From a virus, in IMG/VR virus record IMGVR_UViG_3300034524_000019, positions 1 to 21,351 of that record: DNA of 21,351 nt; one strand, given 5' to 3'. The position numbers and the translations under genes were made by a program. Each line of letters opens with the position of its first letter. The stretch's first letter is position 1. Shown piece after piece: positions 1-21,351 of the stretch. The notes under the pieces are model-generated. The model had not been told where the DNA came from. It saw only the letters and a list, made by a program, of their open reading frames with translations, and ran no database searches.

Positions 1-389
1 CGGTTCATCATCATTTGGTTATAAACATGGTGAACAATATAAGCGGGAAAGAATTGAATGATTTGTGGATCAATGGCCGGACAAGATTTACATACCTGGA
101 TGAATCTGGGCAGTATGGAGCACTGGCACATTATTTGATTAAGGAAACAAGAAAGACTTATCAGGAAAAAGGAAGCCCTTCAGGTAAGCGGTGGAATCCT
201 TCAAGAAATTTGAAAAAGCCAATCATCAAAAAAGAGATCATCAAATCTAACGAATGGCGGAAAGAGCCAAAAGCGATTAAGGGATACATGCTGGAAAAGA
301 ATTCTATCCAGGAAGGTTTTCACGACATCACGGGATGGCCATTCCAAAAATACACAATGATAAAAATTCAGGAAAAGAAGAGGTGCTGA
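1..389 (+). CDS. HUH Rep-like protein, C-terminal part (5' end outside window)
   Basis: The reading frame is already open at the left edge; the first full codon is at base 3 and reads V-H-H-H before a TTG at 15, so that TTG is probably internal. The HHH triplet in a hydrophobic strand (HHHLVIN) resembles the metal-binding HUH motif of rolling-circle replication initiators and relaxases. About 40 residues later the stretch AHYLIKE offers a tyrosine in the place expected for the nicking Tyr. The C-terminus (SRNLKKP, EPKAIKGY, GWPFQKY) resembles a Rep-like family I associate with Firmicutes prophages. The DNA-nicking function is inferred; the N-terminal half is not visible. The next gene starts one base after the stop, with GAGGTG as its binding site, so it is in the same operon. 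Confidence 0.6.
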   Translation, partial: VHHHLVINMVNNISGKELNDLWINGRTRFTYLDESGQYGALAHYLIKETRKTYQEKGSPSGKRWNPSRNLKKPIIKKEIIKSNEWRKEPKAIKGYMLEKNSIQEGFHDITGWPFQKYTMIKIQEKKRC

Positions 390-390
390 A

Positions 391-1320
391 ATGAGTAAAA
401 AAGCTGGGAAATTGGAATTAGGTTCTGAAATTAGTTTAGGCGGAAGAATTTGGATTGCAAAAAGAAAATCAGAGCCAGCAGAAATTGTGACACTGGCGTT
501 AAAGACGTCATTAAAAAATATGGAATTTGATGAAGCAGAGCCAGGTAATCCGGATGAATGGAGAGCAGACTACGGAAATAATGATTATGAGCTTTCGAAC
601 ATTCGTCAATGGCTCAATAGCCGGGGCAACGATTGGTTTAGAAAACAGCACGAATATGATGCGCCACCAGAAGATTATGAATATACGAATGGATTTTTGA
701 CTGATTTTACAGAAAAAGAATTGGATGCAATCAAGAAACTTGAAAACGGTGATTTATTTTATTTGCCGTCGGTAGATGAAGTGGATCTGGTTACAGGTGA
801 TGAGTTTGATAAAGGATGGGTTTGGACAAGAACTCCGTACTCTGGCTCTTCGTATTTCGTCCGGGGCGTGAGCTCTACCGGGGCACTGCTCGACAACTAC
901 GCCTTTAATGGCAATTTTGGAGTTCGCCCGCTTTGTAGTCTGTCATCTGAAACAAAACTAACAAAAGTAGATGATGCCTGGCAAATAATTGATCAGAAAA
1001 AAACAGAGAAGAAGAAAAAGAATAAAAGAAGCAAAAAGCAGCAGCAGGATGAAATTTTAAGAAAAGTGATAGCAAAATGGGGAATGAAGCTGCAGAGCAT
1101 TAAAGCGATCGAAGAAATGAGCGAACTGACAAAAGAGCTCAGTAAAGTGATGCTGGATCAGGATCAATCAAATAATGAAAATATCCTGGAAGAAATGGCT
1201 GATGTACAGATTATGCTCAATCAGTTGGCAATCATTTACGGAAGCCCGGAAGGTTGGATTAAGAAAAAGATTAATCGCATGAAAAATAAGTTTCAGGAAG
1301 AGGAATCGGAATGGAGTTAG
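391..1320 (+). CDS. DUF6273 (C-type-lectin-like) domain fused to MazG-like NTP pyrophosphohydrolase
   Basis: A 309-residue protein with two recognisable parts. Residues 1 to about 190 match the DUF6273 type: QWLNSRG at 73-79, FLTDFTEKE, FYLPSVDEV, then a WTRTPY...VRGV...GVRPLCSL segment at 145-184. A Lys/Gln-rich linker (about 201-219) leads to residues 220-305, which look like an all-alpha MazG/dUTPase-like NTP pyrophosphohydrolase with metal-binding acidic residues E241, E242, E245, E268 and D271 (EExxE...ExxD). Such enzymes hydrolyse NTPs to NMP and pyrophosphate in the cytosol. There is no signal peptide, so the lectin-like part should also be intracellular. Free-standing MazG-like proteins are common in phage early regions; the fusion is what is odd. 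GAGGTG lies 10 bases before the ATG. The reaction is inferred from motifs; substrate unknown. Confidence 0.8.
   Translation: MSKKAGKLELGSEISLGGRIWIAKRKSEPAEIVTLALKTSLKNMEFDEAEPGNPDEWRADYGNNDYELSNIRQWLNSRGNDWFRKQHEYDAPPEDYEYTNGFLTDFTEKELDAIKKLENGDLFYLPSVDEVDLVTGDEFDKGWVWTRTPYSGSSYFVRGVSSTGALLDNYAFNGNFGVRPLCSLSSETKLTKVDDAWQIIDQKKTEKKKKNKRSKKQQQDEILRKVIAKWGMKLQSIKAIEEMSELTKELSKVMLDQDQSNNENILEEMADVQIMLNQLAIIYGSPEGWIKKKINRMKNKFQEEESEWS
835..940 (+). other. Variable-region-like segment of the DUF6273 domain
   Basis: Codons for residues about 149-183. By hand count, bases 841-930 are about 57% GC against about 38% in 721-810. The segment is rich in Ser, Gly, Tyr, Phe and Asn positions between conserved anchors (WTRTPY before, GVRPLC after). 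This is the place where DUF6273-type lectin folds differ most between paralogs and where diversity-generating retroelements write changes in related proteins. No reverse transcriptase or template copy was found in the window, so active diversification is inference only. Confidence 0.45.
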
Positions 1321-1538
1321 AAAAGGTCAGGAAAAACCTGGGACAAATTGTTGAGCACACAGACCCACGCAACAGAAGCGATAAGACAAAATATAAATTT
1401 AAAGGCTGCACATTAAGAAGAAACGAAAAAGGATTTTATTACGAGGCCGAACTGCTAGATTTAAAAGCAAATTCATTGCGTGTTACAAGGTTGGAAGATA
1501 TCAGAGAGATTGAGGAGCAATGTGAATATTCTAAGTAA
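1311..1538 (+). CDS. Small phage protein of unknown function
   Basis: 75 residues, rich in Lys, Arg and Glu, with no membrane segment and no motif I can assign. The start ATG lies inside the last codons of the preceding fusion gene (10-base overlap), with AGGAAGAGG upstream, so it is translationally coupled to it. The central piece (YKFKGCTLRRN then YYEAELLDLKANS) alternates in a beta-strand-like way and suggests a small folded beta domain. The position among DNA-metabolism genes suggests an early accessory role, but nothing in the sequence proves one. Confidence 0.7.
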   Translation: MELEKVRKNLGQIVEHTDPRNRSDKTKYKFKGCTLRRNEKGFYYEAELLDLKANSLRVTRLEDIREIEEQCEYSK

Positions 1539-1950
1539 GCATGAAATATACATCTTAGACAAAAGGCAGCTGCAGGGAATTAAAAAACAAATTAAATACT
1601 GGCAGAAGTTTAGTGATCTGCCAGCAAAAGACCTGCAGCCGCTATTTGCCGTAAAAGAATTATATGCAAAAGATAAAAAACTGAGAAAAGAAGTCAGAAA
1701 AGAATTTATCATAGCAGTCGAAAAACATAGTAACCACAATGCTAGGATAAGGTTATCAAATCTCAACCGGAAACACGCCAAGATTAAGCACGAAACAGAA
1801 TGGCAATACAGACGATTCAGCATACTGGATACGATCATCGTAAAAACAATCGCGCTAAATCCAAACAGCAGGATAAATAGCCAGAGTTTTTTATGTGTTT
1901 TAGCTGGAGAAAATGCTATTGAAGGATTTAAGAAAGGAATTGGGATATGA
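1522..1950 (+). CDS. Hypothetical basic, helical early protein
   Basis: I place the start at the GTG at 1522, preceded by GAGGAG at the right distance. This gives 142 residues beginning V-N-I-L-S-K-H and overlaps the previous gene by 17 bases. An open frame extends back to a GTG at 1480, but that start has no convincing binding site. The protein is Lys/Arg-rich (for example KKLRKEVRKEF, NLNRKHAKIKHE) and predicted mostly helical, which could suit nucleic-acid binding. No family recognised. It ends 4 bases into the next gene (ATGA-type overlap with recU-like copy 1), so the two are probably expressed together. Confidence 0.65.
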   Translation: MNILSKHEIYILDKRQLQGIKKQIKYWQKFSDLPAKDLQPLFAVKELYAKDKKLRKEVRKEFIIAVEKHSNHNARIRLSNLNRKHAKIKHETEWQYRRFSILDTIIVKTIALNPNSRINSQSFLCVLAGENAIEGFKKGIGI

Positions 1951-2558
1951 CAAAAACGATACACAATGAAGAAAATTTTGTGGAACACTATCCAGATCCA
2001 ACCGCAGGAACCGCTATCCGCAACATTGAACATGAAAAAAATAGCAGAAGAGGTTACAGAAGCAGAGCGATTGGAAAGAATTTTGAAAAAATGATAGAAG
2101 CAGCATGCCGGCAGTACAGAAATATCGGCGTGGCCATAATTGAAAAGACTCCAGAACCGATGAAGGTTATCAAAGGTCATTCACAAGGACGGTTTACGGC
2201 TTGCTTTGAGAAAAAAGCGCAACCGGATTTTAAGGGTTGCACACAATATGGAAAAGCAGTCATCTTTGAAGCAAAGGCAACAGAGCAGGATCGGATAAAA
2301 AAGAACGCAGTAACAGGAAAACAATTTGAATCATTAGATTCTTACTGGAAAGTCGGAGCAGAAGTATTCGTATTAGTATCATTCTGCCATGAGCGTTACT
2401 ATCGGGTGCCATGGGGAGTGTGGAGAGAAATGGAAACATTTTATGGACGCAAATACCTAAAAGAAGAGGATATTAAAGATTGCCAGGTTTGTTTTAAAAA
2501 TGGCTACATTGATTTTTTAGAACGGGAATTATGGATCAGAAGTGGTGATGAGAAATGA
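1947..2558 (+). CDS. RecU-like Holliday junction resolvase, copy 1
   Basis: 203 residues. It matches the RecU/PD-(D/E)XK fold: a basic RGYRSRAIGKNFE segment near residue 35, a central GVAIIEKTPEP strand, QPDFKG with D94, and FEAKAT with E108 and K110 as the catalytic acid and lysine, then the VFVLV strand and YYRVPWG near residue 150. RecU dimers cut Holliday junctions during recombination, and phage copies resolve branched replication intermediates before packaging. Compared with cellular RecU, this protein carries about 30 extra N-terminal residues (NEENFVEHYPDPTAG) and a C-terminal extension past YGRKYL. Both are conserved in the second copy at 4166. ATGA overlaps join it to both neighbours. 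Confidence 0.85.
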   Translation: MTKTIHNEENFVEHYPDPTAGTAIRNIEHEKNSRRGYRSRAIGKNFEKMIEAACRQYRNIGVAIIEKTPEPMKVIKGHSQGRFTACFEKKAQPDFKGCTQYGKAVIFEAKATEQDRIKKNAVTGKQFESLDSYWKVGAEVFVLVSFCHERYYRVPWGVWREMETFYGRKYLKEEDIKDCQVCFKNGYIDFLERELWIRSGDEK

Positions 2559-4165: not shown

Positions 4166-4783
4166 ATGGCAAAAACAATTTACAATGAAGAAAATTATGT
4201 GGAACACTATCCGGATCCGACTGCAGGGGAAGCGATCCACAACATCGAACATCAAAAAAAGACAGAAAACAAGGCCAGAGGTTACAGAAGCCGGGCGATT
4301 GGTAAAAGTTTTGAATCAATTATAGATCATGCCTGTAAAAGATATCTGGATACTGGAGTGGCCAACATCGAAAAGACACCAGAGCCAATTAAGCAGATAG
4401 GTGGTTTTGACAGAAAGGGGCAATTTAAGGCCTGTTATGAGCATCGGGCGCAACCGGATTATAAGGGAACCATTAAGAGCGGAAAAGCGGTTATATTTGA
4501 AGCTAAAGCCACAGAATCGCATAAAATAAAAAAGGATGTTGTTAAGCAGTGGCAGTTTGAATCATTAGACAGTCATTGGCAGATAGGCGCTGAAGTTTTC
4601 GTTTTAGTCTGTTTTGAGCTGGAGCATTATTACCGGGTACCATGGGGCATATGGCGGGAAATGGAAACATTATACGGGCGTAAGTATTTACTGCAGAAGG
4701 ATATTGAAGATTGTAGGGTTGAGTTTAAAAATGGATATTTGCATTTTTTAGGCAAAAAAGAGGTGAAAAATGACGATGATTGA
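4166..4783 (+). CDS. RecU-like Holliday junction resolvase, copy 2
   Basis: 205 residues, about two-thirds identical to copy 1 at 1947 by hand alignment. It has the same layout: NEENYVEHYPDPTAG extension, RGYRSRAIGKSFE, GVANIEKTPEP, catalytic QPDYKG (D98) and FEAKAT (E112, K114), QFESLDSHW, VFVLV, YYRVPWGIWREMET. All catalytic positions are kept in both copies, so neither looks dead. Expected role: cutting Holliday junctions in phage recombination or replication intermediates. AGGAAAGGA precedes the ATG. Differences are spread along the whole length, so the duplication is not recent, or the second copy came from a related phage. It overlaps the next gene by 14 bases. Confidence 0.85.
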   Translation: MAKTIYNEENYVEHYPDPTAGEAIHNIEHQKKTENKARGYRSRAIGKSFESIIDHACKRYLDTGVANIEKTPEPIKQIGGFDRKGQFKACYEHRAQPDYKGTIKSGKAVIFEAKATESHKIKKDVVKQWQFESLDSHWQIGAEVFVLVCFELEHYYRVPWGIWREMETLYGRKYLLQKDIEDCRVEFKNGYLHFLGKKEVKNDDD

Positions 4784-7609: not shown

Positions 7610-9260
7610 CTACCATCCATACATTGATTTGTATATTGACAACATCAGAAACGGAACAATCCGGGCGTCAAAAGAGATCAAATTAATGTGCGATCTGGTA
7701 GAAAAGAGGCTCAATCATACCGATGTTTTTATCAATTCAGAGGCAATTGACAAGGCTGTTGAACTGATGGAACGCTATTTTGAGATCAAACTTTTGGACT
7801 GGGAGCTATTCGTTACAGCATGTATTCACTGCTATTATCAGTCCACAGACACCGTTGTTTTCAGCACGATATTTATTGTGATGGGAAGAGGAAATGGGAA
7901 AAATGGTTTCATATCACCGATAGCCTGGTATCTCACCACCCACTATCACGGGATCACCGGATACAACATTGATATTGTGGCCAATGCAGAGGATCAGGCC
8001 AAAACATCATTTCTGGATATCTATGAAATGCTGGAAAGAACCTGGGCGAAATCGAAGAAGTTTTTCTATAAATCAAAAGAGCTGATCCGGAATATCAAGA
8101 CAAGTTCGTACATCAAGTTCAATACTTCCAATGCCAAAACAAAGGACAGCAAGCGGACGGGGTGCCTAATTTTTGATGAGGTCCACCAGTATGAGGATTA
8201 TGACAACATCAAGGTTTTTACATCGGGATTTGGGAAGCGCAAGCATTCCAGATCTTTTTACATTACGACCAACGGGAATGTCCGGGAGGGCGTCCTTGAT
8301 GACATGCTGGCCATCGCCACTGATGTTCTTAATGGAGACATTGAAGATCTGCGCTGGTTGCCGCTAATCTATAAGATTGACAGCGAAGAGGAGGCACTGG
8401 ATCAGGAGATGTGGGAAAAAGCAAACCCGTCACTCCGGGAGTTCCCAACGCTGATGACTGAGATGCAGCAGCAGTCAATTGAGATGAAGTATAAACCAGC
8501 CATGGAAGAAGAGTTTTTCACAAAACGACTAAACTGGCCCAGGGGAAATAAAGAAACCGAAGTAACAGACTATGAAAATATCAAGGCCACAAATAAGCCG
8601 CTACCAGATCTGACTGGTAGATCCTGCAGCTGCGGGATTGACTATACAAAAATCAATGATATGGCATCCGTCAACCTGCATTTCAAAGACGGCGAGTACC
8701 GGTACGATATTAACCATACCTGGTTCTGTTCAAAATCAGCCGACTATAACCGGGTTAAGATGGATAAGGAAAAGCTGATCAAGCTGGGCTTACTGACCAT
8801 TGTGGACGATGTGGAAATATCACCAAAACTGTTGACAGACTGGATCGAAGAAATGGCGGCGATCTATGACATAACAGAGCTGGCCTGTGACGGTTTCCGT
8901 TACGCTTTACTGGCCGAAGCGCTGAAAGAAATCGGCTTCGATGCCAAAGAAAAGAAAAATGTCAGACTGGTACGCCCGTCAGATATTTATAAGATCGTGC
9001 CAGTAATTGAAAGTTATTTCAACAACCAGCGTTTCATTTGGGGTGATAACCCGCTGCTGAGGTGGGCCACAAATAACACCAAAGTTTTAACGTCCGGAAG
9101 AAAAGACGGCAGCGATACCGGGAACCGGTACTATGCAAAAATTGAAAGCAAGTCACGAAAAACTGACCCATTCATGGGCCTTGTACATTCGGTCGTGCTG
9201 GAAGAAAACCTGACAGAATCAGAGAATGTCATTGCCGATATGCCGGTGTACATTTACTGA
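7590..9260 (+). CDS. Terminase large subunit
   Basis: 556 residues from a GTG start at 7590 within the end of the small subunit gene; GGATGG lies upstream. ATPase half: Walker A-like MGRGNGKNG at 98-106 and Walker B LIFDEVHQ at 193-200 with the catalytic acid E197. Nuclease half (RNase H fold): CGIDYTKIND with D351, LACDGFRY with D434, and a late Asp near 526 (KTDPFMGLVHS). It pumps DNA into the prohead and cuts the concatemer. Belongs to the Terminase_1/YmfN-like group usual in HK97-type phages. No frameshift or missing motif. Confidence 0.95.
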   Translation: MTTRKCNYHPYIDLYIDNIRNGTIRASKEIKLMCDLVEKRLNHTDVFINSEAIDKAVELMERYFEIKLLDWELFVTACIHCYYQSTDTVVFSTIFIVMGRGNGKNGFISPIAWYLTTHYHGITGYNIDIVANAEDQAKTSFLDIYEMLERTWAKSKKFFYKSKELIRNIKTSSYIKFNTSNAKTKDSKRTGCLIFDEVHQYEDYDNIKVFTSGFGKRKHSRSFYITTNGNVREGVLDDMLAIATDVLNGDIEDLRWLPLIYKIDSEEEALDQEMWEKANPSLREFPTLMTEMQQQSIEMKYKPAMEEEFFTKRLNWPRGNKETEVTDYENIKATNKPLPDLTGRSCSCGIDYTKINDMASVNLHFKDGEYRYDINHTWFCSKSADYNRVKMDKEKLIKLGLLTIVDDVEISPKLLTDWIEEMAAIYDITELACDGFRYALLAEALKEIGFDAKEKKNVRLVRPSDIYKIVPVIESYFNNQRFIWGDNPLLRWATNNTKVLTSGRKDGSDTGNRYYAKIESKSRKTDPFMGLVHSVVLEENLTESENVIADMPVYIY

Positions 9261-9290
9261 TAATTGCAGGATGGAAAGGGGGTGATAAAA

Positions 9291-10460
9291 ATGGGGCTAA
9301 TAACATGGATAAGAGACTTTTTAAGCGGCGGCATTGTGACGTCAAAGCAAGCGACAGAAGAGGAATTTTACAACGCTGTAGCCGAAACATGCTACCGGGA
9401 ACTGGCTTTTCATACTGCCGTTAATATGATTGCCAACTCAATCAGCAAGTGCGAATTTAAAACATTTAAAGCAAACAAAGAAGTCAAAGAAAAAGAATAC
9501 TACTACTGGAACGTGGAGCCAAACAAAAACCAGAATTCATCACAGTTTTTGCACAAGCTGATTTCACAGCTTTACAAATACAATGAATGCCTGGTTATCA
9601 TCGAGGGCGAACAGTTTCTTGTAGCCGACAGCTTTACTGCCAAAGAATATGCACTGATGGAAAATCTGTACAGCAACGTGAAGGTTGGCGATTGGAGTTT
9701 CAACAAAACATTCAACGGCAAAGACGTTTTTTACTTCAAGCTATCCGAACAGGATATGAAAAAGGTCGTTAATGCGATCTATGAAAGCTACGGGAAACTG
9801 ATCACATACGGCATGAAAAGCTATCAGAAGTCACGGGGCAGCAAAGGGATCCTAAACTACGAAGCAATTAAAAAAGGCGATGAAGAGGCCAGGAAGAACT
9901 TTGACGACCTAATGAATGTGCGGTTTAAGAAATTCTTCGAAAGCGAAAATTCAGTGTTGCCACTACCAAAGGGATATGAGTTTAACGACATTGGCAGTAA
10001 GACTTACTCCAACGAGGGCACCCGGGATATCCGGGCAATGATGGACGACATCAACGATTTCACGGCCAGAGCGTTCGGGATACCGCCAGCACTGATCCGG
10101 GGAGACATTGCCGGGATCAGCGATGCCATGCAAAGTTATCTGACGTTTTGCATTGATCCGCTGATTGATATGCTACAGGAAGAAATCAACCGCAAGCGCA
10201 ACGGCTATGTGGCATTTAGCCAGGGAACATATCTAAAGATTGACGCCAGAAATATCAAACACATGGATATTCTGGAATCAGCACCGTCGATTGACAAGCT
10301 GATTGCCAGTGGGGTTTATTCAATTAACCAGATGTTGGATATGCTGGGCGAATTACGGATCAACGAACCGTGGGCCGATCAGCACTTTATAACCAAAAAC
10401 TACAGCACCGTCGAAGATTTATTGACAGCATTGCAAAACGGACCACCTAACACTGGATAG
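9291..10460 (+). CDS. Portal protein, HK97 type
   Basis: 389 residues from the ATG at 9291, which has AAAGGGGGTGA at the right spacing; an upstream TTG at 9264 lacks a site. Typical portal features are the N-terminal amphipathic start, ETCYRELAFHTAVNMIANSI, a wing region with KSYQKSRGSKGIL, and the conserved late segment DFTARAFGIPPALIRGD, followed by long helices (DAMQSYLTFCIDPLIDMLQEEI) that form the stem and crown. The portal is the dodecameric ring through which DNA enters and the tail attaches. The stop codon lies inside an intrinsic terminator hairpin. Confidence 0.93.
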   Translation: MGLITWIRDFLSGGIVTSKQATEEEFYNAVAETCYRELAFHTAVNMIANSISKCEFKTFKANKEVKEKEYYYWNVEPNKNQNSSQFLHKLISQLYKYNECLVIIEGEQFLVADSFTAKEYALMENLYSNVKVGDWSFNKTFNGKDVFYFKLSEQDMKKVVNAIYESYGKLITYGMKSYQKSRGSKGILNYEAIKKGDEEARKNFDDLMNVRFKKFFESENSVLPLPKGYEFNDIGSKTYSNEGTRDIRAMMDDINDFTARAFGIPPALIRGDIAGISDAMQSYLTFCIDPLIDMLQEEINRKRNGYVAFSQGTYLKIDARNIKHMDILESAPSIDKLIASGVYSINQMLDMLGELRINEPWADQHFITKNYSTVEDLLTALQNGPPNTG

Positions 10461-10470
10461 GTGGTTTTTT
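10443..10470 (+). terminator. Intrinsic terminator at the end of the portal gene
   Basis: CCACCTA (10443-10449) pairs perfectly with TAGGTGG (10458-10464) across an 8-base loop and is followed by six T. The right arm contains the portal stop codon. As the protease gene follows only about 40 bases later without an obvious promoter, read-through must occur. Confidence 0.75.
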
Positions 10471-10506
10471 ATTGCAAAAGAAAAAAGAAAAAGAAAGGAG
10501 GACAAG

Positions 10507-11379
10507 ATGGCGATTAAAAAGTATTACTCGCTGGTTAAAAACGGAAATGCCGCTGACATCTACATTTATGGAGATATCACATCATGGCCATGGATTGAGT
10601 CGGACGTTTCCAGTTATGGTTTGGCCAAAGAGTTGGAGCTGCTGGAAGCTGAACAGATCAACTGTTATATCAACAGCTACGGCGGGGAAGTAGCCGAAGG
10701 GCTGGCAATCTATAACCAACTAAAACGGCACCCCGCAAAAGTAACAACGATCTGCGACGGGTTCGCCTGTTCGGCAGCATCAGTTGTCTTTATGGCCGGA
10801 GACGAAAGGCTCATGGGGGAAGCGTCGCTGCTGATGATCCACAACGCATGGACCTATACATCAGGAAATTCAGAAGAACTGAGAAAACAGGCCGATGACC
10901 TGGACACCATTACCCAGGCATCAATCAATGCCTACATGGCGTGTGTCAACATCGAAGAGGCGGCACTCAAACAACTGCTGGATGAAGAAACATGGATCTT
11001 GCCAGCTGATGCCGTGGCCATGGATTTTGCGACGGGGATAGCAAAAGAAGAACCCGGGCTACAAGCAAGCCAGAGCATCAAACAGAAGGTCGTTAAAATG
11101 CTGGCTAAAAATGCGGACGGATCGGCATTCAAACCGGCATTAAAAATTGGCACGTCAGACAATGCGAAACAGATCTTGGACGATCTGAAAAAAGAAATGC
11201 AGGAGCAGCTTGACGAAATTAAAAAACAAGCTTGTCGGAGCAATGTACCGGAATCAGAAGAAAATGTACCAGAAACAACAGAAAATGTACCGGAAACAGA
11301 CGGTAAAGTACCAGAACCGCAGGGAGAAGAATCAAACCTGCTAAAAAATTTAGTGGCTGCATTAAGCCAGAAAGGGTAG
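10507..11379 (+). CDS. ClpP-like prohead maturation protease (S14)
   Basis: 290 residues after AAAGGAGG. The first 180 residues are the ClpP fold: INSYGGEVAEGLAIYNQL, the nucleophile region CDGFACSAASVVFMAGD with S89, and LLMIHNAW with H112. The third triad position (Asp in ClpP) aligns with T176 in MDFATGI, with D173 close by, so the triad is not plainly complete. The C-terminal third contains a Lys/Glu-rich helix (AKQILDDLKKEMQEQLDEI) resembling scaffold or delta sequences, then a four-unit VPE-rich repeat and a short LLKNLVAAL end. It cuts capsid delta domains and itself in the prohead. Position between portal and capsid genes is standard. Confidence 0.9.
   Translation: MAIKKYYSLVKNGNAADIYIYGDITSWPWIESDVSSYGLAKELELLEAEQINCYINSYGGEVAEGLAIYNQLKRHPAKVTTICDGFACSAASVVFMAGDERLMGEASLLMIHNAWTYTSGNSEELRKQADDLDTITQASINAYMACVNIEEAALKQLLDEETWILPADAVAMDFATGIAKEEPGLQASQSIKQKVVKMLAKNADGSAFKPALKIGTSDNAKQILDDLKKEMQEQLDEIKKQACRSNVPESEENVPETTENVPETDGKVPEPQGEESNLLKNLVAALSQKG
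11242..11325 (+). repeat. Four 21-bp tandem repeats in the protease tail
   Basis: Units at 11242-11262, 11263-11283, 11284-11304 and 11305-11325 encode NVPESEE, NVPETTE, NVPETDG and KVPEPQG. Each begins AATGTACC or AAAGTACC with later drift in the third base. It makes an acidic, probably unstructured linker between the protease and its last helix; units could expand or contract by slippage. Confidence 0.85.
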
Positions 11380-11383
11380 AAAA

Positions 11384-12628
11384 ATGAAATTACCAAACAC
11401 ACAGAAGAAAATGGAACTGCAGTTATTCTCTGCAAAGAGCGCTGATGCCAAAGAAGCAGAACAGAAGCTGGCGGCAGAAAAAGTAAAAGAGGCATTAAAG
11501 AGCGAGGACGCTGAGGCCTTGGCCAAAGTATTCGCCGATTTTGCCAACGGTATCCAGGAGTCGATTATCTCAGAAGCACAATCAATCGCCCAGGGAGCCG
11601 ACGCCACTGTGCTGGCATCACGAGGCGTTCGGCAACTGACATCAGAAGAAACGAAATATTACCAGGCTGTAATTGAAGCGATGCGGACATCAAGCCCGCA
11701 ACAGGCATTAAGTGACTTGAATGTGGTTATGCCGATCACAACCATTGATGCGGTATTTGACGACCTGGTGGCGAATCATCCACTACTGGGCGTGATCAAC
11801 TTCACCAACACCAGTGGCCTGATTGAATTCATTGTGAACACCAACAGCAAGCAACTGGCAACATGGGGAACATTGACATCAGCAATTGTTGAGGAGCTGA
11901 CGTCCGGCTTTAAGAAAATTAACATGACGCTCCAAAAGCTGTCGGCATTTATCCCGGTGGCTAAATCAATGCTGGATCTGGGACCGGCGTGGATGGATAA
12001 ATATATCCGGACAATTCTGGCCGAAGCGCTTTACTTCGGAGTAGAAGAAGGGATCATCAACGGCACCGGTAAAGAGATGCCAATCGGAATGAACCGGCAA
12101 GTCGGGGAAGGGGTTACCGTAACCGATGGAGTTTACCCATTAAAAACAGCCGTGGCCGTAACAAGCCTAGACCCGGTAACCTACGGAACCCTGATTGGAG
12201 GAATGGCCATTGATGCCAAAGGAAACCAGCGGGTCGTAACAGAGGTGATCATGGTCGTCAATCCAACTGACTACCTGACTAAGGTAATGCCATCAACAAC
12301 CATTCGGGCCGCTGATGGTACCTATGTTAACAATGTATTCCCATTCCCGACTAAGGTGATCCAGTCAACCGAAGTACCAACCGGGAAAGCAATCTTCGGA
12401 TTAGCAAACCGTTACTTTATGGGGATCGGGACAGCCTTGTCCGGAAAGATTGAATATTCGGACGAATACAAGTTCCTTGAAGACGAACGGGTATACCTGG
12501 TTAAAATGTATGGCCATGGCGAACCACTGGACAACACCGCCTTTGTTTATGCAGATATCAGCGGCTTAACACCAGCAATCCAGGAAGTAACCGTCAAAGG
12601 CACTGTATCAACTAAAGAAGTAGTATAA
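11384..12628 (+). CDS. Major capsid protein, HK97 fold
   Basis: 414 residues. The N-terminal 100 or so residues are charged and helical (KEAEQKLAAEKVKEALKS), as in the delta/scaffold domain removed by the prohead protease. The rest fits the HK97 fold: VVMPITTIDAVFDDL, the long-helix region (FIPVAKSMLDLGPAWMDKYI, then ILAEALYFGVEEGIINGTG), and a C-terminal part with ALSGKIEYSDEYKF and VYLVKMYGHGEP. It builds the icosahedral shell. It starts 5 bases after the protease stop and is followed by a terminator, so its messenger end is well defined, in keeping with an abundant product. The cleavage point is not assigned. Confidence 0.92.
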   Translation: MKLPNTQKKMELQLFSAKSADAKEAEQKLAAEKVKEALKSEDAEALAKVFADFANGIQESIISEAQSIAQGADATVLASRGVRQLTSEETKYYQAVIEAMRTSSPQQALSDLNVVMPITTIDAVFDDLVANHPLLGVINFTNTSGLIEFIVNTNSKQLATWGTLTSAIVEELTSGFKKINMTLQKLSAFIPVAKSMLDLGPAWMDKYIRTILAEALYFGVEEGIINGTGKEMPIGMNRQVGEGVTVTDGVYPLKTAVAVTSLDPVTYGTLIGGMAIDAKGNQRVVTEVIMVVNPTDYLTKVMPSTTIRAADGTYVNNVFPFPTKVIQSTEVPTGKAIFGLANRYFMGIGTALSGKIEYSDEYKFLEDERVYLVKMYGHGEPLDNTAFVYADISGLTPAIQEVTVKGTVSTKEVV

Positions 12629-18892: not shown

Positions 18893-19533
18893 GAGCAGAT
18901 ATTAAAATTGGTGAAATCTGGATGGAATCAGACCTAGGACTTGTATTTAACGAAAGAACAATTTCTCCACCTGAACCAAAGTTAGTGCAAATTGAATTAT
19001 TAGGTTCATCTGATGTTATTGATGTTACAGAAATAATTTCAGGAGATGTAGAATATAAACAAAGGACAATTACAATAAGGCTTAAATCAGGAACTGGAAG
19101 AGATAATTATCATTCAGAACAATCAACGCTTGAAAATTATATTCATGGGAAAAAATTAAAGATAATTTTTAATAAAGATCCTGAATTCTATTGGATTGGA
19201 AGAATATCTGTTAGCAACACAGACCCTGAAATATTTGGATCTACAATTACCATTACTGCAACCGTTGATCCTTACAAATACCTTGTAACCCCTCATGTTT
19301 ACGGGGGAACGGTTGCAGGCAGTTTGACTGTAACTATTGCGGGGATGCGAAAGCGAGTTTGCCCTAAAATTACAGTCAGTAGTGTTATGACTGTAAGCTA
19401 TCTAGGAAAAACTTACGATCTAAGTGCAGGTGAGAACATTATCCCTGATATTTTTTTAGGCGAGGGGAATCATCAACTTACTTTTTCTGGTTCAGGTACG
19501 GTATCAGTAGCATATCAAGGTGGTAGTTTATGA
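18889..19533 (+). CDS. Distal tail protein (Dit)
   Basis: 214 residues from an ATG overlapping the tape measure stop (ATGA). N-terminal half is beta-rich (VQIELLGSSDVIDVTEIISG, YKQRTITIRLKSG, ENYIHGKKLKIIF, FYWIGRISV) and ends with ITITATVDPYKY, the hallmark of Dit family proteins, followed by a galectin-like C-terminal half. Dit forms the hexameric hub linking tail tube and baseplate. The gene is much poorer in GC (about 31% over 18901-19080 by hand count) than the end of the tape measure gene (about 43%), with AT-rich third positions. This suggests separate ancestry. Confidence 0.85.
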   Translation: MRADIKIGEIWMESDLGLVFNERTISPPEPKLVQIELLGSSDVIDVTEIISGDVEYKQRTITIRLKSGTGRDNYHSEQSTLENYIHGKKLKIIFNKDPEFYWIGRISVSNTDPEIFGSTITITATVDPYKYLVTPHVYGGTVAGSLTVTIAGMRKRVCPKITVSSVMTVSYLGKTYDLSAGENIIPDIFLGEGNHQLTFSGSGTVSVAYQGGSL

Positions 19534-21351
19534 GTATTCGATACAGATGTCATATTGAGAATATTAGCTGGACAGATTACGCTCAAGACGGTATTGCTTG
19601 TGGGACTGTCGAACAAGCACTCCGGCTTGAGGCGATTCAAATTATCCTCGCCGGTATGGAAGATTTAAGTATTGGGGTCGAATACCAGGCACATGTTGAA
19701 AACTACGGATGGATGCCGATTGTGAGTAATGGCGAGACAGCCGGGACTGTCGGCGAAGGCTTGCGGCTTGAAGCGATCCGTATGCGCTTAACTGGACAGG
19801 ATGCCAGCAAGTATTCGCTACAATATCGTGTTTATGTCGAAGATATTGGATGGGTGCTGTGGAGCAAAGACTGGGAAACCTCCGGGACTGAAAAAATGGC
19901 TCTGCGAGCGGAAGCAATTGAGATCAGGCTGGTTCCAAACCAGATTGAGATCGACAAAGTCATCCCCACTACGCCAATTATTCAGTCGGTAGCTACTGAG
20001 GATAGCTTGGCAGCATCATATTCAACGCATATCCAGGATTACGGATGGATGCCGTCTGTCTATGGTGGCATGATGTCAGGAACCGTTGGTAAGAGTTTGC
20101 GAATGGAAGCAATGCGAATAACGCTTGTCAATACAGGGGCGTTAGATCTTGGCATTGAGTACCAGGGGCATATTCAAAATCAGGGATGGCAGGAGACTAA
20201 AAGTGACGGTGAAACAGCTGGCACAACGGACTTAGGATTGCGAATGGAAGCGGTTAAAATCAGACTAACCGGAGCTGATGCAGCTCACTATTCTGTATGG
20301 TATCGCGTCCACATTCAAGGGCTCGGATGGAGTGAGTATGCAAAAGATTGGGAAATTTCCGGTACGGTTGAAAGTGCTTTAAGGGCTGAGGCAATTGAAA
20401 TAGTTATTGCAAAGGCGGGCACAAACCTTATTCGTGAACCAGGCCAGACTCACGGCGTATCAACTGAATATTGTACCCACCTTGAAAACATGGGCTGGAC
20501 AGGTTGGGTCAAAAACGGTACGGTTTCAGGCACGACTGGAAGAGCTTTGCGAATGGAAGCTTTAAAACTCAAGATAAATAAATCCTATCTGGAAGGCGTT
20601 GATTTGGACGTTCAATATCGGGCGCATGTTGAAAATATCGGTTGGATGGAATGGGTAGATAGTGGTGAAATAGCCGGAACAGAAGGACAAGGGGTGCGAT
20701 TAGAAGCATTTGAGATAGTTCTGATTGGCATTGATGCCAACGACTATTCAATACAGTATCGCGTTCACCTTGAGGATCTGGGATGGTCAAAATGGTTTTC
20801 TGACGGTGAAACAGCCGGTACAGTTAGCGAAGGAAGGCGAGCAGAGGCTGTCAGTATTGTTATTATTAAAAAAGCCAATCTTGAGACCGAGATCACAAAT
20901 GAAATAAAAAACAAAGCCCCTTATATTCAGGTTTATGGTCAAGAGTTTCCGCATGAAGCTTTTTTACTGCATGATATTCGGACGGAATTGAAGCTGGTTG
21001 AAGAGATTGAACTGGTCGAAGGGGTTAATGCAGTTCCCAGTTTAACCTTTTCGATTCCTCCAGGACACCCTCATTATGATGAGCTTCACGATCTTAGAAC
21101 AACGATTCAGGTTTACGAGGTTGCCAGTAACGCGTCAAAGAATCAAATATTTGAGGGGCGGATTTTAAATTCGCAAAGTGACAAAAATAATGTCAAAAAA
21201 GTTGTGTGTGAAGGCGAGCTTGCCTATCTGCTTGACAGCATACAGCGACCGGCAATGTATGAAGATTTGACAATTGAAGACTACTTGACGACATTACTTA
21301 ATAATCACAACATGAATGTAACGGCCGATAAACGGATCTACATGGGTATTT
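19530..21351 (+). CDS. Tail-tip protein: nine ChW repeats followed by Tal-like hub domain (3' end outside window)
   Basis: An open frame of 607 codons to the window edge, starting at an ATG that overlaps the Dit stop (ATGA). Residues 3-447 hold nine ChW repeats in three triplets (see repeat entry). From about residue 463 (YIQVYGQEFPHEAFLLHDIR, then PSLTFSIPPGHPHYDEL, TIQVYEV, FEGRILNSQ and CEGELAYLLDS) the sequence is the N-terminal hub domain of phage Tal/prophage tail endopeptidase proteins, which trimerise at the tail tip. The hub domain normally starts at or near residue 1. Here 450 residues precede it. ChW repeats are thought to bind cell-surface polymers or proteins, so they may act as receptor-binding or host-adhesion modules. 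No stop or frameshift seen. Confidence 0.85.
   Translation, partial: MSIRYRCHIENISWTDYAQDGIACGTVEQALRLEAIQIILAGMEDLSIGVEYQAHVENYGWMPIVSNGETAGTVGEGLRLEAIRMRLTGQDASKYSLQYRVYVEDIGWVLWSKDWETSGTEKMALRAEAIEIRLVPNQIEIDKVIPTTPIIQSVATEDSLAASYSTHIQDYGWMPSVYGGMMSGTVGKSLRMEAMRITLVNTGALDLGIEYQGHIQNQGWQETKSDGETAGTTDLGLRMEAVKIRLTGADAAHYSVWYRVHIQGLGWSEYAKDWEISGTVESALRAEAIEIVIAKAGTNLIREPGQTHGVSTEYCTHLENMGWTGWVKNGTVSGTTGRALRMEALKLKINKSYLEGVDLDVQYRAHVENIGWMEWVDSGEIAGTEGQGVRLEAFEIVLIGIDANDYSIQYRVHLEDLGWSKWFSDGETAGTVSEGRRAEAVSIVIIKKANLETEITNEIKNKAPYIQVYGQEFPHEAFLLHDIRTELKLVEEIELVEGVNAVPSLTFSIPPGHPHYDELHDLRTTIQVYEVASNASKNQIFEGRILNSQSDKNNVKKVVCEGELAYLLDSIQRPAMYEDLTIEDYLTTLLNNHNMNVTADKRIYMGI
19536..20870 (+). repeat. 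ChW repeat array, nine units in three triplets
   Basis: Units of about 40 residues at positions 3-42, 48-87, 97-135; 161-199, 208-247, 256-294; 312-350, 360-399 and 408-447 of the tail-tip protein. Linkers of about 25 and 17 residues separate the triplets. Each unit has the pattern Y..H.E..GW......G..AGT.G..LR.EA..I.L; the Trp residues are at 14, 61, 108, 173, 220, 267, 323, 372 and 419. The first unit has ISW instead of GW. Unit 3 types in each triplet share KDWE or DGE before the SGT/AGT turn. Confidence 0.9.

Follow-up and report, generated by a model that had tools for sequence, protein, structure and literature searches.

A phage gene joining a DUF6273 lectin-like domain with a putative DGR-type variable repeat to a MazG-like domain

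Described DUF6273 targets and the present locus

Phage proteins in which a DUF6273 lectin-like domain carries a DGR hairpin have been described. The closest to the gene studied here are nd12_tgt2 and nd4_tgt2 (Baykov et al. 2023, PMC10743442), which are encoded in the early region; nd12_tgt2 also has an extra enzyme-like domain, DUF3310. Baykov et al. proposed receptor binding for both proteins, did not discuss the early-operon position, and regarded it as unclear what purpose is served when one retroelement mutagenises two phage genes of different function. Tentaclins, which have this lectin domain and its variable hairpin as well, are DUF6273-Ig tail proteins encoded beside a DGR reverse transcriptase (RT). 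FP_Toutatis gp24 and Lelie orf58 of Faecalibacterium phages are early-operon DUF6273 proteins whose variable repeat derives from a template on the tail side. A non-structural second DGR target lies amid conflict-related genes in Quimbyvirus, a Bacteroides phage, and no recognised enzyme domain was reported for it (Benler et al. 2021, PMC8008677). In cyanobacteria, kinases and orthocaspases are partners of DGR lectins (PMC7517822), as are NACHT systems in multicellular bacteria (PMC10907252).

In the present study, we analysed a stretch of viral DNA of 21,351 nt (IMG/VR record IMGVR_UViG_3300034524_000019; hereafter, the window), in which a gene of the early operon encodes a DUF6273 domain followed by a MazG-like domain. 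It shares the lectin-like domain, the hairpin, and the early position with nd12_tgt2 and nd4_tgt2. However, the extra domain is an N-terminal DUF3310 in the former and absent from the latter, whereas MazG is C-terminal in the window protein. Tentaclins have an N-terminal C-lec domain and then one or more Ig domains, the C-terminal one being an anchor. Within the DUF6273 domain of the window protein, the N-terminal half is tentaclin-like, but the protein has no Ig domains, the mid-domain insert is missing, its gene lies in an early operon, and MazG is attached. The Faecalibacterium proteins have a replication protein of the same PHROG nearby and, unlike the window protein, no fused enzyme domain. 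The window protein has in common with the Quimbyvirus target that it is probably non-structural, and with the bacterial systems that a hypervariable lectin is joined to a putative intracellular effector; however, the latter are chromosomal, are proposed sensors of the cell, and have no MazG. Phage MazG-like enzymes of phrog_2245 share the second domain, its helices, and its EExxE..ExxD motifs with the window protein, but they are small and stand-alone. MazG and DGRs are mentioned apart from each other in PMC7981956, and the passages concerned describe no fusion of the two.

The first-pass annotation of this DNA had stated that no described system has this architecture. This was too strong, since the DUF3310-DUF6273 protein nd12_tgt2 has been published and cyanobacterial DGR lectins with kinases or peptidases are known. 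DGR second targets with an extra enzyme-like domain are, thus, not new. No other DUF6273-MazG fusion was found in 391 Clostridia genomes, in the best 80 IMG/VR MazG-like loci, or in GenBank phages. Furthermore, a single-sequence pattern search of IMG/VR for near relatives of the full protein gave none.

The fusion gene, its operon, and its two domains

The fusion gene is a single ATG-to-stop open frame of 309 aa (391..1320, + strand, as for all features of the window located below). It is preceded by the 3' part of a gene for a replication initiation protein (3..389; phrog_3584, E 1e-21), which ends 1 nt before it, and is followed by an ORF that overlaps it by 10 nt (1311..1538) and belongs to the same operon. 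The operon continues to a RecU-like Holliday junction resolvase gene (1947..2558; PF03838, E 3e-20), after which come the terminase, portal, capsid, and tail genes. The phrog_3584 replication protein is also encoded close to the second DGR targets of contig L118 and FP_Toutatis. We noted two RecU-like resolvase genes in the window (1947-2558 and 4166-4783), with approximately 70% DNA identity and an HNH endonuclease gene between them; a related contig, L030, has one RecU-like copy, which matches both (92% and 68%). At the end of the window (19530-21350), a tail protein starts with many repeats of approximately 50 aa (YxAHVENIGWM...GTxGxxLRLEAIxI), ChW-type in look. A search against known defence families gave a single match, to Cas8f, which was judged spurious.

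An uninterrupted frame with DUF6273 motifs, a Lys-rich linker, and EExxE..ExxD motifs had been read from the sequence before, and the 309-aa ORF, the profile matches, and the motifs bore this out. When the two parts were searched separately, the N-terminal 210 aa were identified as DUF6273 and the C-terminal 97 aa as an NTP pyrophosphohydrolase. The DUF6273 or C-type-lectin-like domain (residues 1-200; 391..990) matched PF19789 above the curated cut-off, both with the full-length protein as query (E 2.7e-10) and with its N-terminal 210 aa (E 1.1e-10). Residues 1-205 were modelled by AlphaFold with high confidence (mean pLDDT 92.5, pTM 0.89). We used this run for the lectin figures because the lectin part was poor in the whole-protein run, owing to mixed architectures; a mixed MAFFT alignment was left out of the analysis. 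The best PDB match of the model was the DUF6273-like part of the T. ramosa IgA peptidase (E 6.7e-11). Foldseek matched C-type lectins only weakly and, therefore, the lectin assignment rests partly on Baykov et al. (PMC10743442). The nearest phage relatives of this domain are DGR variable proteins, and the domain has a variable hairpin at its C-terminal end, as is characteristic of DGR targets. As judged from its sequence, this hairpin is a DGR-type variable region.

The Lys-rich linker (residues 201-218; 991..1044) has similar GC contents beside it (38% on one side and 36% on the other), and a DUF6273 protein of a relative, L011, has a Lys-rich linker in the corresponding position. Misassembly at precisely this point is, therefore, an unlikely source of the fusion.

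The MazG-like all-alpha NTP pyrophosphohydrolase domain (residues 219-305; 1045..1305) matched PHROG 2245 with E 1.2e-22. The match to Pfam MazG-like PF12643 (E 4.9e-5) was under the cut-off of that family, and a profile search from this part reached PDB 2q73/2q9l and 4qgp weakly. A four-helix fold had been expected at residues 220-305, and AlphaFold predicts four helices over 215-308 (215-230, 232-256, 262-283, and 287-308; pLDDT about 60-81). The top Foldseek match of the whole-protein model was a MazG-related protein, at a non-significant E of 1.9. The residues of the metal sites, ExxE at E242-E245 (1114..1125; motif from E241) and ExxD at E268-D271 (1192..1203), are invariant: EE(241-242)xxE245 and EExxD (267-271) did not vary among 32 aligned phage relatives. 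The pattern EExxE(12-28)ExxD is present as E241/E242/E245, E268, and D271, with a spacing of 22. We consider the domain to be probably active as a catalyst (NTP -> NMP + PPi).

All-alpha NTP pyrophosphatases are known to oligomerise. The MazG domain may be a catalytically idle dimer or tetramer scaffold that shows several hypervariable hairpins, the whole acting as an intracellular decoy or inhibitor, and the exchange of the C-terminal partner of DUF6273 in L011 is in line with such a role. However, every metal-binding acidic residue has been kept, and pyrophosphatases of another subfamily, phrog_3301, adjoin the second targets upstream in nd12-like phages, which points to enzyme activity. We regard an idle scaffold as improbable.

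The locus varies among relatives. In L030, whose TerL is 99% identical over its 212 residues, the replication gene is the same but the fusion gene is absent. L011 (86% TerL identity) has the DUF6273 protein and the Lys-rich linker, and then an unrelated C-terminal tail in place of MazG (L011 239-487), which ends in EMAEWPDWKKRAYNEMFATSTHSEKLEVDE and has no PHROG match. These differences mark the fusion gene as accessory, with an exchangeable C-terminal module and a join to MazG that is not conserved.

The variable repeat and second targets in other phages

The putative DGR-type variable repeat occupies codons 154-181 (850..933; SYFVRGVSSTGALLDNYAFNGNFGVRPL). We compared it gap-free with ten DGR templates, all from other phages. 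None of 27 conserved template non-A codon positions 1-2 was changed in the window repeat, versus 13 of 23 template A's (Fisher P 3.2e-6), so that the variable codons are confined to template adenines in the AAY register. Wherever the templates encode Asn or Tyr, the window codon has C or T in third position (NNY; 12/12). The L011 repeat is similar (0/26 non-A changes, NNY 11/12) and differs from the window repeat at 14 of 23 template-A columns versus 11 of 61 other columns. In three DUF6273 genes from Clostridia genomes, which serve as domain controls only, 11-12 of 26 non-A positions were changed and NNY was 6-10 of 12. The GC content of the repeat was 54%, versus 38% and 36% in the flanks. 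Collectively, we hold it to be very probable that codons 154-181 are a DGR-type variable repeat. Silent third-position changes indicate that the template of the window lineage has diverged from the published templates.

The template and RT are known for nd12 and nd4, whereas neither was seen in the 21-kb window, a fragment with the late region outside, and no RT family was found among the ORFs scanned. The TerL relatives L011-L029, also fragments, did not reveal an RT. Exact searches of IMG/VR for the 3' end of the variable repeat and for the template core gave no matches, and two short contigs were obtained when the tail protein was used to extend the sequence beyond the window. The register of the repeat suggests that the window phage itself has a DGR.

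The window protein may be an ordinary MazG house-cleaning enzyme with a DUF6273 fragment placed in front by accidental recombination, its variable region having no current role. The fusion is a single example, the gene is missing in L030 and its C-terminus swapped in L011, and stand-alone phage MazG genes are common. However, a decaying repeat would have accumulated some changes at template non-A codon positions 1-2, a confident fold is predicted for DUF6273, and the operon is intact. We find this explanation as doubtful as the idle scaffold.

Homologous early genes of other phages are diversified in an A-directed manner. We found pairs of template and variable repeat with mismatches at A's only next to RT genes, and the RT beside them has an IGNQTSQ motif, which we take to be DGR-like. 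Among related phages, at least eight (nd12, FP_Toutatis, and six IMG/VR contigs) use a single template for both a tail protein and a tail-less early DUF6273 protein, the second target. The second target of nd12 differed from the template by 13 A and 0 non-A mismatches, and a second nd12 strain, L008, has another early allele that departs from the template at A's only. The corresponding A/non-A mismatches were 7/0 for L066/L105, 8/0 for L079/L098, 17/0 for L069/L113, 7/1 for L067/L118, 10/0 for L102/L094, and 11/0 for L073. FP_Toutatis gp24 also had 13 A and 0 non-A mismatches; its gene is in the early region, at 11.5 kb, with Avd, the template, and RT at 48-50 kb. Between Toutatis and Lelie, 17 of the 29 nucleotide differences in this 648-nt gene fall inside the 91-nt repeat.

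The neighbours of the second targets encode replication initiators (phrog_3584), RecU, YqaJ, DnaB, the exonuclease subunit of a DNA polymerase, and methyltransferases. In no segment of any second target did the mean Kyte-Doolittle hydrophobicity exceed 1.4. The window protein most likely belongs to this class of non-virion second targets, as a fused version, and it is likely to be non-virion and intracellular.

Alternatively, the second targets, including the window protein, may be virion-associated Mtd-like adhesins for the bacterial surface, with the helical domain multimerising or anchoring the lectin. The phage DGR targets of known function bind receptors, tentaclins with the same hairpin sit in the tail module, and the first DUF6273 matches include a Hoc-like PHROG. 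However, the genes for second targets are in replication operons outside the tail module, the proteins have no Ig anchor, and the genes are fused to or lie beside those for nucleotide enzymes with intact catalytic residues. We consider adhesins to be unlikely, although less so than the two alternatives above.

Link to nucleotide enzymes and proposed role

In every nd12-like locus examined, these loci being relatives of one another and not independent samples, an NTP-pyrophosphatase gene lies directly upstream of the second target. Where profiled, it belongs to phrog_3301 (E about 1e-38). The two genes mostly overlap by 7 nt or are separated by 50-58 nt, with a gap of 213 nt in one group and, in the divergent pair of L094, an overlap of 110 nt on the longest-ORF reading. 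The second target begins with DUF3310 in nd12, L036, L037, L093, and L100 (by Pfam for nd12 and L093; by sequence for L036, L037, and L100), and this domain matches PHROG nucleotide kinases. In L115/L116, the stand-alone gene most similar to the window MazG domain among the loci compared lies 1.6 kb upstream of the second target. The fusion partner in the window is of another pyrophosphatase subfamily (phrog_2245) than the nd12-like neighbours. Since one subfamily is a neighbour and the other a fusion partner, the sequences point to more than one origin of the association. The link is not universal or obligatory: in several clades of second targets (nd4-like, L101/L108/L112/L113, and L073/L118), no pyrophosphatase is adjacent. 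FP_Toutatis gp25 (L208 4537-4923), which starts 2 nt downstream of gp24, resembled MazG by eye (EELDELIDEV), but its sole match was an unknown PHROG (25385) and it was rejected.

We tentatively propose, with slightly less than even confidence, that the gene is a non-virion second target of a phage DGR, encoding a diversified intracellular binder coupled to nucleotide chemistry. DUF6273 would be the C-type-lectin-like scaffold, with its C-terminal beta-hairpin rewritten by A-directed mutagenic retrohoming. The template and RT would lie downstream of the tail genes, in the late sequence outside the window, with the template end near GGNGTTCGCCCGCTT. The protein would be made from the replication operon and, as it has no signal or membrane segment, is expected to act inside the infected cell. 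The partner bound by the diversified hairpin may be one that changes fast, with a host factor as the most plausible candidate; the MazG domain may supply NTP pyrophosphohydrolase activity at this partner, form an oligomer that displays the hairpins, or both. That it is a recognition-plus-enzyme protein acting against a host factor is possible, at best about as much so as the proposal as a whole. The earlier suggestion of an intracellular variable sensor joined to a nucleotide enzyme stands in part: the hairpin is in DGR register, and homologous second targets of other phages, encoded in early operons next to NTP-pyrophosphatase genes, have been A-mutagenised from a template that we identified, while action in the cytosol, catalysis, and the partner belong to the proposed part. 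The effector role suggested earlier, with host defence signals, alarmones, or competing phages as its object, is conjectural.

More broadly, we speculate that gut phages evolve an early cytosolic binder by a retroelement, besides tail adhesins, which tracks variable immune or regulatory proteins of the host and is coupled to nucleotide-hydrolysing or nucleotide-kinase-like enzymes; we rate this as rather unlikely, albeit less so than an adhesin function. The fusion gene suggests that, in some phages, the rapid evolution of binding proteins extends from the tail to proteins that work within the infected cell. If true, a cytosolic phage binder would be the counterpart, on the phage side, of the DGR antigen sensors that have been proposed for bacteria. 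The early operons, the adjoining NTP-pyrophosphatase in nd12-like phages, DUF3310 in some second targets, and the MazG fusion make programmed hypermutation of an intracellular effector a testable idea. Since both FP_Toutatis and Lelie reside as prophages in Faecalibacterium strains that are in culture, such hypermutation is open to experiment.

We also noted that the second-target DUF6273 genes of L101, L108, L112, and L113 lie directly upstream of YqaJ-type recombination genes and that, in L112 and L113, a small unassigned gene (approximately 97 aa) overlaps the start of the second target. In L123 (IMGVR_UViG_2846198564_000002), an apparent DGR locus (8308-12624) lies right behind the DnaB helicase gene, outside the tail module, and consists of a DUF6273 target, a second DUF6273 gene, a small ORF in the Avd position, and an RT.
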